This document shows, one piece after another, positions 10,246 through 20,644 of a stretch of 33,703 nucleotides of DNA. The stretch spans positions 3,126-36,828 of the forward strand of contig JAGRCC010000234.1 of the NCBI GenBank assembly GCA_020433785.1. The letters are read 5' to 3'. The notes beneath the pieces are model-generated. The model had not been told where the DNA came from. It worked only from the letters and a program-made list of their open reading frames with translations, and did not search any database. The DNA is from Anaerolineae bacterium (GTDB taxonomy: Bacteria > Chloroflexota > Anaerolineae > 4572-78 > J111). Each line of letters begins with the position of its first letter. The stretch's first letter is position 1. The position numbers and the translations under genes are program-made.

Positions 10246-12991
10246 TCTTTGGCTGCTTCGCTTGTTCAGCGACCTCCGCGCTGCCGCGAACGTAGGTGTC
10301 CTTGCCCACCAGCAAGCCTTCGAGCAGTTGCTTTTCTTTGCTGCCTTCGAGCAGACACTCGGCGACGGCCTGGCCGAACTGCCAGAAGGCTCCGCTTTGG
10401 CCGTAGCCGGTGTGGGCCAGCAGTTGGGTCAGTTCGGTCTTGCGGCCCTTCTCCCACAACTGGCAAGCCCGGTGCAGGGCATCGACCATATTCTCCACAT
10501 CCTCAACATCCTCGCGCTTGTGCGGGCCGAGGACGCTGATGTTGGCCCCGCTCTTGTTGACGAAGCCGTGCTTGCCCCACAACTGCTCTAAATCGACCCC
10601 TTCGGCGGTGGCGATTTTGCGGGCGTCATCATAGGGGATGGTGTTATCCAGGAAGGTCCAGCGGTAGGTCAGGTAGAATTGGGCTTCCTTGTCAATGGAC
10701 TCCCGGCTGGCGTCTTTGAGCAGGTGGTTGACCAGAAAATCGGTGGAGACTTCGCGGATGAATTGTAGCAGGGTATCCACGCCGACCGCCTCGCCGGTGT
10801 AGGTTTCGACCCGCTCGTAGCGAGAAAACTCCTCCATACCGGGGCCGATGGCCGAGATGAAGAAATCACCCCCGGCGATGCCCTCCCGCCAGAATTGACC
10901 CAGCTTTTCCTGCACCCGCGCCCGGATTTTAGGCTGTAGCTCATTCCAGAAGCCGAGCGGCTCCCGTTCCATTTTGCGGCAGACCATGTAGATTGAGGAA
11001 GCCAGGGCGGCAGAAGCAATACTACGGAGGCGAATTTTGCGTTCAGTATGCATCGGCCAAGAACCCGTAACTACTAAACCAGCCTCAACTAATCCATTAA
11101 GCATAGTTTCCCAACCAGCCGTAGTTTTATGAGCATATACAACTATCGCTATTCCACCTGGTTTCAACACCCGATGTATCTCCCTGAATGCTGTACCCAG
11201 AGTTTCTTCAAAAAAGATTTTCGCATCTTCTTTAGTTGGATGTCGGTCAGGCTCCATAATGGCTTCATCTACTTTTGGAATAACTGGGGTCGAAAACAAA
11301 TCTGGAAAGTATTCTCCAATTGATCGTTTTAGCCAAACATAGAAAAAATCTGCTAAAGGGGCGTATGGCACATTATCATAATAAGGTGGGTCAGTAAGTA
11401 CAGCATCCAAATAGCCATCGGATATGGGTAATTTAGTAGCTGATGATTGAGTAATATTCCCTCGAAAAGGTTGATTTGAAGGATTTGTCTGGATAAAATT
11501 CAAAACCCACCCTGTTGCGCTATCCCATCCTCCCGTTGAGGCATTAAACGGATTTACTTCAAAAAAGTCCCAAGTCATGGATAAAGCTTGACGGCCAAAA
11601 GTATGAGCCATAAACTCGCCATTGCTTACCCAAACACAGAGCGTTGAGCTATAGTCAAGTAATCGGCTCATAATGGTGGCTAAATAGCCTACTACTGCTT
11701 GAGCAAGTTCATGAGAGTCGTATGTCAAGTTTGAGAATTTCGCAATATCCAGTTTAACCCCTTCAAAGCTATTACGTATTTTTTCGAGCAATGTGATGAG
11801 CGCTAGCTGTTGGCGATAATTAAAAATGTCTTTCCATTCCTTTGCCCCATAAGATGTTGGCACCATATATCTAGAATTTTTAGCAATTTCCTCATCTGGT
11901 AGTGGGCTCTCCAGAAATGGCCATTCCATCAGTTTTTTCTCCAAGGACTCTTTTGCGCTAGAAAACACATACTCATGTGCTTCTGTGGCAATACGATATC
12001 TTTTCCCAGACTGGTGTGGATTGTGTTGCACTTCGGCTATTATACGTTGGCCCATGTCACCTTTATGAGCTAGACGGCGGGTGTCAGTAGCCTTAGTGAT
12101 CTGTCCACAAACAAAACATTGAGCATCGCCTCGATTCACATTAGCTCGACTTGGGTCAAACTTTGCATCTCTTATCTCTTTGTTAGTTTTTAGGAGTTCA
12201 AACTCGACTTGATTATCGTCCTCATTTACTACTGGATGATAAGCAACCTTCTTGTCGTTCTTTTTAGCCAGCCAAAATTGCTTGATCAACGGGATTTCGG
12301 CCTCACAAATTGGGTTCTGGCAGGGAATAGTTCTGGCCCACAAATAACCAACGGGAATCCAGCCATCTTCATCTGCGGGGTAAAAACGGCCAATCTCGGC
12401 GCGGGCCTCTTCTAAAATTATGTTGGCCCATTTCTCCACCAGGTAGGCCAACAGATTGACTTTTTGCCCTTCACCAAATCCCAATTGAACGCCATTGTCA
12501 GTTTGCCCGGTTTCGTCCGGGGGCAATTCAACCTCGATGCCAAACTTCTGCGGCCATTCCAGGGTGGCCTTTTCAATGAAGACGGCCACGGGGTTGTAAT
12601 CATTGGCGTAGGTTTCGCAGCCTAAGCGTAACGCCTCTAAGGGTATCGAACCACCACCAGAAAAAGGGTCGAGCACGCGGGGCGGGCGGCCATACTGCTC
12701 GGCAATCAAGCGTCGGGCTTCTTCAATATCTTCGCTGTTGCCGTTTTTCACTGCCTCCCAAGGGGTGATGCGCTTGACCAAATCGAGCAGGTACTCGCGT
12801 TGCTGGGGGTTGTCCTCGCCGGGGTCGTCAATCAGGGCGGCAAAGGCCGTGGCCCGCGACGAGGCCAGCGGTCGCCGCGCCCACCAGATGTGCAGCGTCG
12901 AAGGGTGGCCGTGGCGGATATTCTTCTCCCGCGCCGACTCTTCGGAGATGTCGGCCAGGGGCAGGTCGTACTCGATGAGGCGTTTTTTCAT
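10220..12991 (-). CDS. DUF1156-family adenine-specific DNA methyltransferase
   Basis: This 923-aa N6-adenine methyltransferase begins with the DUF1156 signature: MKKRLIEYDLPLADISEESA, then IRHGHPSTLHIWWARRPLAS. S-adenosylmethionine motif I, RVLDPFSGGGSIPLEA, is at about 105-120, and catalytic motif IV, VLTDPPYYDNVPYAPL, at about 531-546 (DPPY). Two Cys pairs (C224/C229 and C292/C295) form a likely zinc ribbon in the insert between them. The order of motif I before DPPY and the size fit COG1743. It presumably marks host DNA, with the downstream ATPase and the SNF2 helicase as partners that distinguish or act on unmodified DNA; this is inferred from family context. It starts 4 nt after the 234-aa gene. 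Its first codons are duplicated three more times upstream in the array. Confidence 0.9.
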   Translation of the reverse strand: MKKRLIEYDLPLADISEESAREKNIRHGHPSTLHIWWARRPLASSRATAFAALIDDPGEDNPQQREYLLDLVKRITPWEAVKNGNSEDIEEARRLIAEQYGRPPRVLDPFSGGGSIPLEALRLGCETYANDYNPVAVFIEKATLEWPQKFGIEVELPPDETGQTDNGVQLGFGEGQKVNLLAYLVEKWANIILEEARAEIGRFYPADEDGWIPVGYLWARTIPCQNPICEAEIPLIKQFWLAKKNDKKVAYHPVVNEDDNQVEFELLKTNKEIRDAKFDPSRANVNRGDAQCFVCGQITKATDTRRLAHKGDMGQRIIAEVQHNPHQSGKRYRIATEAHEYVFSSAKESLEKKLMEWPFLESPLPDEEIAKNSRYMVPTSYGAKEWKDIFNYRQQLALITLLEKIRNSFEGVKLDIAKFSNLTYDSHELAQAVVGYLATIMSRLLDYSSTLCVWVSNGEFMAHTFGRQALSMTWDFFEVNPFNASTGGWDSATGWVLNFIQTNPSNQPFRGNITQSSATKLPISDGYLDAVLTDPPYYDNVPYAPLADFFYVWLKRSIGEYFPDLFSTPVIPKVDEAIMEPDRHPTKEDAKIFFEETLGTAFREIHRVLKPGGIAIVVYAHKTTAGWETMLNGLVEAGLVVTGSWPMHTERKIRLRSIASAALASSIYMVCRKMEREPLGFWNELQPKIRARVQEKLGQFWREGIAGGDFFISAIGPGMEEFSRYERVETYTGEAVGVDTLLQFIREVSTDFLVNHLLKDASRESIDKEAQFYLTYRWTFLDNTIPYDDARKIATAEGVDLEQLWGKHGFVNKSGANISVLGPHKREDVEDVENMVDALHRACQLWEKGRKTELTQLLAHTGYGQSGAFWQFGQAVAECLLEGSKEKQLLEGLLVGKDTYVRGSAEVAEQAKQPKIEQGRLFD
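12912..12991 (-). repeat. Repeat copy R1: live 5' end of the methyltransferase gene
   Basis: This is the reference copy for a family of four direct repeats in the array. The other copies are R2 at 13721-13786 (60 of 66 nt identical to 12926-12991), R3 at 15367-15435 (59 of 69 nt identical to 12912-12980) and R4 at 20612-20644 (29 of 33 nt identical to 12959-12991). All lie on the same strand and each extra copy sits directly before an accessory gene. Identities were counted by eye. Confidence 0.9.
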
Positions 12992-12995
12992 TTAA

Positions 12996-13700
12996 TCACT
13001 CCAGGTTTAGCATCTGTTTGACTTTGCCGTAATCGGGCGCAAACATACCCGGCACATTTTTCATTCGGCCCTGCATTTGTTCGCTTTCCTCAATCAGTTC
13101 CAGTACCTGCCGACGGCCTTCGGGCGTTTTAACCGCCTGCCGGGGAGTCAAGCCGCCCAAAGCCGGGATCGATTCGTCAATCCACTGCCGCAACATCTGC
13201 TCTTCAAGCTGGGCAACCAGCTCCGGGGGTGGGATGAATGGCCCGCTCGATTGGGGCAATGATTTGGAGGGCCGGGGCTTTCGTCTGGTCGGTTTGGTCG
13301 GGCTAACCCGCTCACCCAATAGTTGCTTCAGGCGGCGGTCGCATCGTTGCAACCGCTCCTGCGACATCGCTTCCACTTCCAGGGTGTCGGGGGTCAAGGT
13401 CAGCTGAGCCAAAACCCGCTGCCCAATAGGGGCAAATAAGCCGGGCTGGTCAGGGTCGGTTTCAAACCAGGGGAACTCCAATGTGCCGTCCGCCTCTGCC
13501 TCATCGTTATCATCTAGGCCAAAGTCGTCGGCATGAATCAATATCTGGCGAATTTCAGGCAGGGCAGCGTGCCGGTAATGGGCGCTCACTTCCACAAGCG
13601 CATCACCTTCAACAGTTGTCAAAGATGGTCCGCCGGAGCGTCGCCTGGGCCGGGCCGGTCGGCGGATTTGGCCGCGTTTTGGACGTTTTTTCTCGCTCAT
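12996..13700 (-). CDS. 234-aa accessory protein with basic N-terminus and LGGLTPRQA motif
   Basis: The first 25 residues are Arg/Lys/Pro-rich, followed by an acidic stretch (DDFGLDDNDEAEADG) and a middle region with FAPIGQRVLAQLTLTPDTLE. A proline-rich basic linker (about 130-155) leads to a C-terminal segment WIDESIPALGGLTPRQAVKT, then EGRRQVLELI. That tail resembles the MbcA/ParS (DUF2384)-like and SEC-C-associated pattern W-x-D-x-x-(I/L)PxLGGxTPxxA seen in several bacterial families, so it may bind a partner protein; this is a resemblance, not proof. The ATG at 13700 has GGAGA upstream, and its first bases overlap the stop of the R2 stub as ATGA. The stop lies 4 nt before the methyltransferase ATG. 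It could be a core partner of the methyltransferase or the most recent cargo gene. Confidence 0.65.
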   Translation of the reverse strand: MSEKKRPKRGQIRRPARPRRRSGGPSLTTVEGDALVEVSAHYRHAALPEIRQILIHADDFGLDDNDEAEADGTLEFPWFETDPDQPGLFAPIGQRVLAQLTLTPDTLEVEAMSQERLQRCDRRLKQLLGERVSPTKPTRRKPRPSKSLPQSSGPFIPPPELVAQLEEQMLRQWIDESIPALGGLTPRQAVKTPEGRRQVLELIEESEQMQGRMKNVPGMFAPDYGKVKQMLNLE

Positions 13701-20562: not shown

Positions 20563-20590
20563 AATTTTTACCGAAAGCTATTCTCACGCC

Positions 20591-20644
20591 TCACCGGGAT
20601 CGGTTCACGGAGGGCAGATCATGTTCGATGAGGCGTTTTTTCAT
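20591..20644 (-). pseudogene. Repeat copy R4: 17-codon stub of the DUF1156 gene start
   Basis: The minus-strand ATG at 20644, preceded by AAAGGA, opens MKKRLIEHDLPSVNRSR and then TGA. The first 11 residues match the methyltransferase N-terminus except Y8H, then the sequence diverges. Homology at the nucleotide level covers 20612-20644 (29 of 33). It lies 52 nt after the stop of the AbiTii-like gene and 28 nt before the dual-nuclease start. Its ribosome-binding site is intact, so it may still be translated as a leader peptide. Confidence 0.75.

Follow-up and report, generated by a model that had tools for sequence, protein, structure and literature searches.

The stretch of DNA considered here (the window) covers 33,703 nucleotides (nt) of contig JAGRCC010000234.1 (positions 3,126 to 36,828, forward strand) in the Anaerolineae bacterium assembly GCA_020433785.1. 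Judged from its sequence matches, it holds an Hma defence system with all core genes on the minus strand, and HmaA, HmaB and HmaC were all detected with PADLOC. We propose, with a probability of roughly two in three, that foreign accessory genes have entered the interval between hmaA and the DUF1156 methyltransferase gene hmaB step by step, through homology-anchored recombination at its conserved borders, in a manner resembling homology-facilitated illegitimate recombination. The traces are short copies of the hmaB 5′ end, here called stubs, that lie upstream of the live gene and, in other loci, second copies of the hmaA 3′ end.

Copies of the hmaB start in the window

The hmaA-hmaB interval of the window holds seven accessory genes, with three stubs lying among them. 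The borders and the stubs are the following:

24550..28005, minus strand: HmaA helicase, upstream border of the accessory interval (PADLOC HmaA 1.3e-222; SNF2/Helicase_C/NOV_C)
20612..20644, minus strand: stub 3, first 11 codons of hmaB, in a 17-codon open reading frame (ORF) (29/33 nt, E 3e-6)
15367..15434, minus strand: stub 2, decayed hmaB 5′ end (57/65 nt, 87.7%, E 3e-18)
13719..13786, minus strand: stub 1, first 22-24 codons of an hmaB allele, in a 29-codon ORF (E 1e-22)
10220..12991, minus strand: live hmaB, DUF1156 adenine methyltransferase (Pfam DUF1156 9.7e-24; PADLOC HmaB 1.4e-150)

The first-pass annotation of this DNA had reported four copies of the hmaB start on one strand, each extra copy directly upstream of a separate accessory gene, and both observations were confirmed. 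Stub 1 agrees with live hmaB at 60 of the first 66 nt (91% over 68 nt), and five of the six differences are synonymous. Stub 2, whose 57/65-nt match covers 15431-15367, has lost its start codon and contains an in-frame TAA, its match beginning at nt 16 of hmaB. The gene directly downstream encodes a 234-amino-acid (aa) protein for stub 1, a 514-aa protein for stub 2 and an Mrr_cat protein, followed by an nSTAND3 protein, for stub 3. Against a background in which the best non-stub matches to the hmaB start reach 19/33 and 34/66 in the window, and 19-22/33 and 31-35/66 in antisense DNA from five other loci, stubs 1 and 3 stand out by a wide margin. Among repeats of at least 20 nt in the 9-24 kb part of the window, no other family equals the stubs in length and identity. 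The 514-aa gene ends in a stop codon that overlaps the stub-1 ATG, which suggests that this gene was once coupled directly to hmaB, and an overlap of the same type joins a PIN-toxin gene to hmaB in another locus, L007.

Stubs, scars and junctions in other DUF1156 loci

Our main survey took in 132 sampled Chloroflexota DUF1156 loci with at least 1 kb of upstream DNA (at least 5 kb in 112 of them), and searched the upstream DNA of each locus, 1,545,918 bases in all, for copies of that locus's own DUF1156 5′ end. A 5′ stub ahead of another DUF1156 start was found in the window, L001, L007, L064, L113 and L133, that is in 6/132 loci, a frequency for this sample alone, its genomes having been picked by DUF1156 match and the loci taken from part of the matches listed. 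L113 carries two stubs (A and B). The DUF1156 gene that follows is a long ORF of 923 codons in the window, 986 in L001, 961 in L064 and 970 in L133; in L007 the contig ends within this gene, and in L113 the gene has an internal deletion. In the group made up of the window locus and its seven relatives, which are Chloroflexi, Anaerolineae or Anaerolineales by title, 3/8 loci have stubs. The search for 5′ fragments in related loci that the first-pass annotation had suggested thus found them, with differing genes behind them, and its idea of repeated insertion at the hmaB 5′ end, with old starts left as scars, gains support from loci beyond the window.

The survey left out 30 short loci (L008-L037, many of them refetched longer) and L176, a repeat of L006's place; a later scan of the 30 gave one stub (L014, the same place as L064) and one tandem gene (L012), five of them being without any DUF1156 N-terminus. 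Twelve plasmid regions, L190-L219 and L220-L239 also stand outside the 132. L177 has a stub, an OLD gene and then a broken second DUF1156 start. L221, with three starts and no live one, enters the codon test described below and stays outside the 6/132, while L225, whose second start lies at a contig end, is outside both. DUF1156 5′ fragments with no live start noted downstream in the stretch occur in L097, L155, L156, L157, L158, L174, L222, L224, L226 and L227, and were not counted because simple gene loss explains them equally well. In L221 (G055:C104) the three same-strand starts lie within 1.7 kb with no live gene after them in the stretch, as if the locus had been emptied and only relics remained. 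L148 is degraded, and L223 (G391) and L228 carry further DUF1156 pieces.

For a nucleotide-level control, hmaB was split into 120-nt segments, segment 0 being the 5′ end, with a cut-off of E 1e-3. Segment 0 matched upstream DNA on the plus strand in seven loci, including L132 with a weak match (E 7e-4) not scored as a stub, and on the minus strand in none; the other nineteen segments matched in 0-8 loci each, with matches on both strands. Below E 1e-15 there remain matches of segment 0 in five loci, of the stretch continuing it in L113 and of linker repeats in L103 and L104. At the protein level (cut-off E 1e-4) there were 18 fragment rows, of which six are short N-terminal same-strand pieces of the resident HmaB, the strongest in L133; the other 12 come from a separate 823-codon ORF (four rows; L081, L084) and from dispersed repeats (eight rows; L103, L104). 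Apart from dispersed repeats, the strong upstream hmaB fragments are therefore N-terminal, which supports the earlier proposal that the incoming unit consists of an accessory gene plus an hmaB start. Short dispersed repeats, partly palindromic, also occur in hmaB coding linkers and after hmaB (L001:11521-14879, L002:10481-13479), and similar ones lie upstream of hmaB in L103 and L104.

The repeats begin 0-7 nt from the start codon, except in window stub 2 and in L113 stub A, which is cut by a contig end. Their right edges fall at codons 11, 23, 27, 27, 28, 29, 51, 61, 79 and ~155, and such wide variation indicates that the junctions have no fixed attachment site in common. Site-specific integration, in which a mobile cassette would enter at an attachment site in the hmaB 5′ end and supply a new start, as do some elements that target gene ends, agrees with the use of the same gene end in the same orientation every time. 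We nevertheless hold it to be very unlikely, because of the spread of the right edges, because the intervening proteins scanned with Pfam include no integrase or recombinase family (only transposase-like ORFs were seen, near the window edges) and because scars of the hmaA 3′ end would need a second site. On the same grounds, we do not retain the dedicated landing pad of the first-pass annotation.

A further possibility is that the stubs have a function, as leader ORFs or as regulatory elements retained for translational coupling. The stop/start overlaps (the 514-aa gene with stub 1, the L007 toxin gene with hmaB, and a case in L222) and the fact that stubs 1 and 3 of the window are still open short ORFs are in its favour. 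However, stops, frameshifts or start loss affect window stub 2, L001, L007 and L133, in the window the accessory gene nearest to hmaA has no stub match ahead of it, and OLD genes elsewhere do without such leaders, so that we give this explanation hardly any credence. An OLD gene stands directly ahead of a DUF1156 start in L005, L113 and L177. When OLD homologues were searched in 396 genomes, 31 had a match and 30 places were read with ~1.5 kb of flank, some with less; a DUF1156 start was found at L005's own place only, and the N-terminal DUF1156 hidden Markov model (HMM) detected no such leader in the flanks of the other 29/29. At its cut-off of 9 bits this model fails to detect stubs 2 and 3 of the window and the stub of L007. 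The leader hypothesis is thus rejected for the OLD family alone; leaders kept with an accessory family outside DUF1156 loci, which the first-pass annotation had named as evidence against its model, were not found there.

Scars of hmaA complement those of hmaB. In L133, an hmaB 5′ part of ~480 nt (to codon ~155) runs into an hmaA-3′ copy (144 nt, 81%), followed by a GmrSD gene and the live hmaB, and the hmaB::hmaA-3′ join has little common sequence as judged by eye. In L113, an hmaA C-terminal end (oriented 6233-6286; 16/18 residues against the HmaA of Meiothermus, followed by a stop codon; E 1e-5) is found between a shortened RloB gene and an OLD gene, after which comes a DUF1156 start. Both junctions are what would be expected if the incoming piece started within a donor hmaA and its left end was attached by a non-homologous join. 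L154 bears a mirror scar (12824-15178), in which hmaA is followed by a HicA gene overlapping its end (Pfam 3.8e-9), by further small genes judged by eye and by an hmaA-3′ copy (176 nt, 77%) that finishes near the gene's own end; beyond the copy lie a SAVED-domain gene, another ORF and hmaB. By nucleotide self-comparison, hmaA-3′ copies were found in 3/125 loci (L133, L154 and L043), the one in L043 being a short dispersed repeat, and second copies of hmaA 5′ ends in 0/112 loci and of hmaC 5′ ends in 0/23. The stretch of L113 has no hmaA gene, and self-comparison is therefore blind to its hmaA piece. A non-homologous join on one side is thus seen in L133, in the shortened RloB of L113 and in the variable stub ends, and a conserved anchor with homology on one side in the hmaB 5′ repeats and in the hmaA 3′ end of L154. 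L113 carries scars of both hmaA and hmaB within one contig; it also has a third DUF1156 gene with its middle deleted (oriented 8159-8825) and, ~1 kb on, a further hmaB C-terminal piece (9800-9925).

The route that we envisage would begin with the entry, by transformation or conjugation, of a donor segment running from the end of hmaA through a gene Y to the start of hmaB. The donor would pair via the strongly conserved 5′ region of hmaB, with a homologous crossover there, while its other end would be joined illegitimately just inside the recipient hmaB; the resulting order would be X-[old 5′ end]-Y-hmaB, and the live hmaB would acquire the donor's start. Alternatively, the illegitimate join may truncate an accessory gene already in place; the shortened RloB of L113 points to such a case. 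Events anchored in hmaA would produce the mirror image, with new genes between hmaA and an old hmaA 3′ end.

Alleles, duplicates and the genes between the scars

Stub and live start can be compared as alleles or as duplicates. Over 11 in-frame stub-live alignments (stub-stub in L221), 90 differences are synonymous and 62 non-synonymous (59% synonymous), the choice of alignment ends by hand from BLAST ranges being a weakness of this codon test. The share expected is 28-31% for a neutral stub and 43-47% for a neutral stub with a constrained live duplicate. The observed value departs from the former with P 3e-16 (kappa 2) or 4e-13 (kappa 5) and from the latter, duplication plus decay, with P 5e-5 or 2e-3; when the highly diverged L133 is removed the counts are 54/32, with P 1e-4 and 2e-3 against duplication plus decay. 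Over all alignments together, though not for the window by itself, the synonymous excess favours joined alleles over duplication and decay. Divergence at 4-fold sites of hmaB between the window and L006 is 36/105 in codons 0-250, 65/96 in codons 250-650 and 36/112 in codons 650-900. On these figures HmaB looks like a mosaic whose ends are less diverged than its middle, which would make the gene ends natural anchors.

Several observations weigh against stepwise loading by recombination. We found no pair of close relatives before and after an insertion, so that no event is seen directly; 126/132 loci are without a counted stub, the hmaB 5′ end shows no excess over the other segments at the loose E 1e-3 cut-off, and the bias toward short stubs is explained only in part. 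The window alone, with 11 synonymous and 8 non-synonymous differences, is compatible with duplication plus decay (P 0.12-0.24), and L007 (0/7 synonymous) and window stub 2 (3/9) look simply decayed. L230 and L231, from one genome (G303), are complete tandem hmaB genes ~3 kb apart, and the third DUF1156 gene of L113 keeps residues 1-196 and the C-terminal end without the middle; duplication and internal deletion thus also occur. In 12 plasmid regions (of 65 matched plasmid records) the N-terminal HMM, which would also overlook very short stubs, detected no stub. As further observations, identity between the L230/L231 copies is 96-97% in the first 1.4 kb and 89% at the end, the middle containing a stretch that does not align, and G303 has 16 DUF1156 matches. 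No stub was found in six Thermus plasmid regions; in these Thermus thermophilus plasmids (L178-L183) a full Fic-family gene or a 57-58-codon ORF stands ahead of hmaB with the same 8-nt overlap, which suggests that the Fic gene may have been shortened in some of them. Phage records gave no match and viral contigs no relative.

These points bear on in situ duplication, according to which hmaB, or the stretch from the hmaA 3′ end through hmaB, was tandemly duplicated, one copy was trimmed to its 5′ end and other genes moved in. The tandem genes of G303, the L113 gene with its ends kept and middle lost, the place of L155, where an hmaB 5′ part lies beside a fragment of residues 834-893, and the neutral-type decay of some stubs all agree with it. 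On the other hand, the hmaB pieces upstream of the next start are N-terminal across the 132 loci, the 11 alignments have the synonymous excess described above, and duplication by itself does not bring in unrelated genes. We therefore consider in situ duplication an unlikely origin of the stubs.

The genes that separate a stub from the next start differ from locus to locus. They are a nucleotidyltransferase (MNT)/HepT pair in L001, a PIN-domain toxin with a small partner gene in L007, an OLD-like ATPase between the stub and the broken start of L177 and a GmrSD-Schlafen protein in L133. In L113, the stretch from stub A to stub B encodes a PHP-AAA protein and a Schlafen protein, and that from stub B to the third start an AbiL-like ATPase, the shortened RloB and an OLD-like ATPase. 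In L064 a pair of stubs, the second one weak (30/42 nt), is followed by the live start with no other ORF reaching 60 codons in between. Genes for the PIN toxin, OLD, Xre and the 514-aa protein were found at varying positions in sister loci; a homologue of the window's 234-aa protein is present in L004, and the 514-aa homologue of L006 sits directly after HmaA.

Ordinary recombination at any hmaB 5′ end could also remove a gene Y held between direct repeats, or carry it elsewhere, as one unit. The geometry permits such homology-flanked cassettes, and the two stubs of L064 without an intervening gene are what would remain after a loss. Yet the same stub-Y junction was not found in two different hmaB backgrounds, and 69-nt repeats at 91% would probably be poor substrates; this explanation appears highly improbable to us.

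The accessory genes of the window, in order from hmaA to hmaB, and the remaining core gene are:

23451..24602, minus strand: 383-aa protein with a match to the N-terminal portion of a pAgo model (PDLC02395 4.9e-10)
22100..23485, minus strand: 461-aa MID-PIWI Argonaute half (Piwi 1.2e-21; pAgo_II 4.2e-73)
20697..22112, minus strand: 471-aa protein of no assigned family, last gene before stub 3 (ORF)
19105..20562, minus strand: 485-aa Mrr_cat restriction-endonuclease-like protein (PF04471 5.4e-06; PADLOC PDC-M36A 3.2e-15)
15441..18734, minus strand: 1097-aa nSTAND3 NTPase (PF20720 2.7e-13)
13783..15327, minus strand: 514-aa protein of no known family (ORF; stop codon overlaps stub-1 ATG)
12996..13700, minus strand: 234-aa protein with an Xre/MbcA/ParS C-terminal domain (Pfam PF09722 6e-06)
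5930..9610, minus strand: HmaC DUF499 ATPase (PADLOC HmaC 1.7e-144; DUF499 2.1e-38)

The label of nuclease that the first-pass annotation had given to the 514-aa protein could not be confirmed, as the protein has no Pfam, PADLOC or PDB-sequence match. The Argonaute (22100-24602) is apparently split into two overlapping ORFs of 383 aa and 461 aa. Transposase-like ORFs flank the locus at 446-1861 and 29732-31135, and direct repeats of 165-179 nt (72%) lie at 29257-29435 and 31387-31551.

Order of arrival and known systems

Under stepwise loading, repeated events would build arrays. Since each new piece would enter at the live start, the genes next to hmaB should be the newest, and in the window the 234-aa Xre/MbcA/ParS-C gene would be the latest insertion. 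The first-pass annotation had read the order of acquisition from decay of the scars with distance from the live gene. L113 fits this well (stub B is 96% and stub A 84% identical to the third start) and the window weakly (91, 88 and 88%), but L064, where the nearer stub is the poorer one, contradicts such a clock. Position is a better guide to arrival order than decay.

The statement of the first-pass annotation that no described system acquires genes in this way was too strong. For the immunity arrays of the type VI secretion system (T6SS) of Vibrio cholerae, successive insertion with a homologous anchor and an illegitimate end is proposed in passages of PMC5361080, which also relate these arrays to Rhs orphan arrays. 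As set out there, donor modules are added in sequence at a conserved anchor and old gene remnants are shifted along the array, much as we propose for DUF1156 loci. However, the displaced effector is lost in the T6SS arrays while immunity genes accumulate (same passages), whereas DUF1156 loci mostly retain their older accessory genes, have the start of a core methyltransferase as their scar and seem to use both borders (hmaA 3′ and hmaB 5′) as anchors. The loci also resemble chromosomal integron arrays, in which genes are added successively at one end with the newest by a fixed gene (also from passages of PMC5361080), but neither an integrase nor a fixed junction was seen, no search having been made for attC-like sites. 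One homologous and one illegitimate end are likewise the hallmark of experimental homology-facilitated illegitimate recombination, described in part of PMC3240628 as a laboratory process, whereas in DUF1156 loci the process would be read from fossils.

OLD, HEPN/MNT, Schlafen, PIN and GmrSD genes within or beside DUF499/DUF1156 core loci are already published (in part of PMC12839542), and with its three Hma proteins the window resembles the Hma or DUF499-centred Type-1 systems related to bacteriophage exclusion (BREX) (parts of PMC8565338 and PMC12839542). The portions of these two papers that deal with them describe the association, and neither scars nor an acquisition route. In searches of open-licence papers we found no report of methyltransferase-start scars; with the acquisition mode already proposed for T6SS arrays, these scars are the new and informative part.

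The stubs might also be more than relics. They may act as working homology arms, the hmaB start and the hmaA end being shared sockets across DUF1156 systems through which accessory genes are passed between hosts and subfamilies and stacked in order through ordinary recombination. This idea is tentative, and on present evidence rather doubtful. If it were true, loading would be integron-like without an integrase and would also swap the methyltransferase start and possibly the recognition domain.

Accessory genes inside core defence operons are usually merely recorded, their route of arrival being left aside. Here the junctions are preserved, so that the insertion route, through homology at core-gene borders, and a partial order of arrival become readable and can be tested in many genomes. 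A leftover 5′ piece of the core methyltransferase gene, or an additional hmaA 3′ end, is the simple sequence signature by which insertion events can be searched. Such loading could explain the varied extra nucleases and toxins found in Hma and BREX-related operons.

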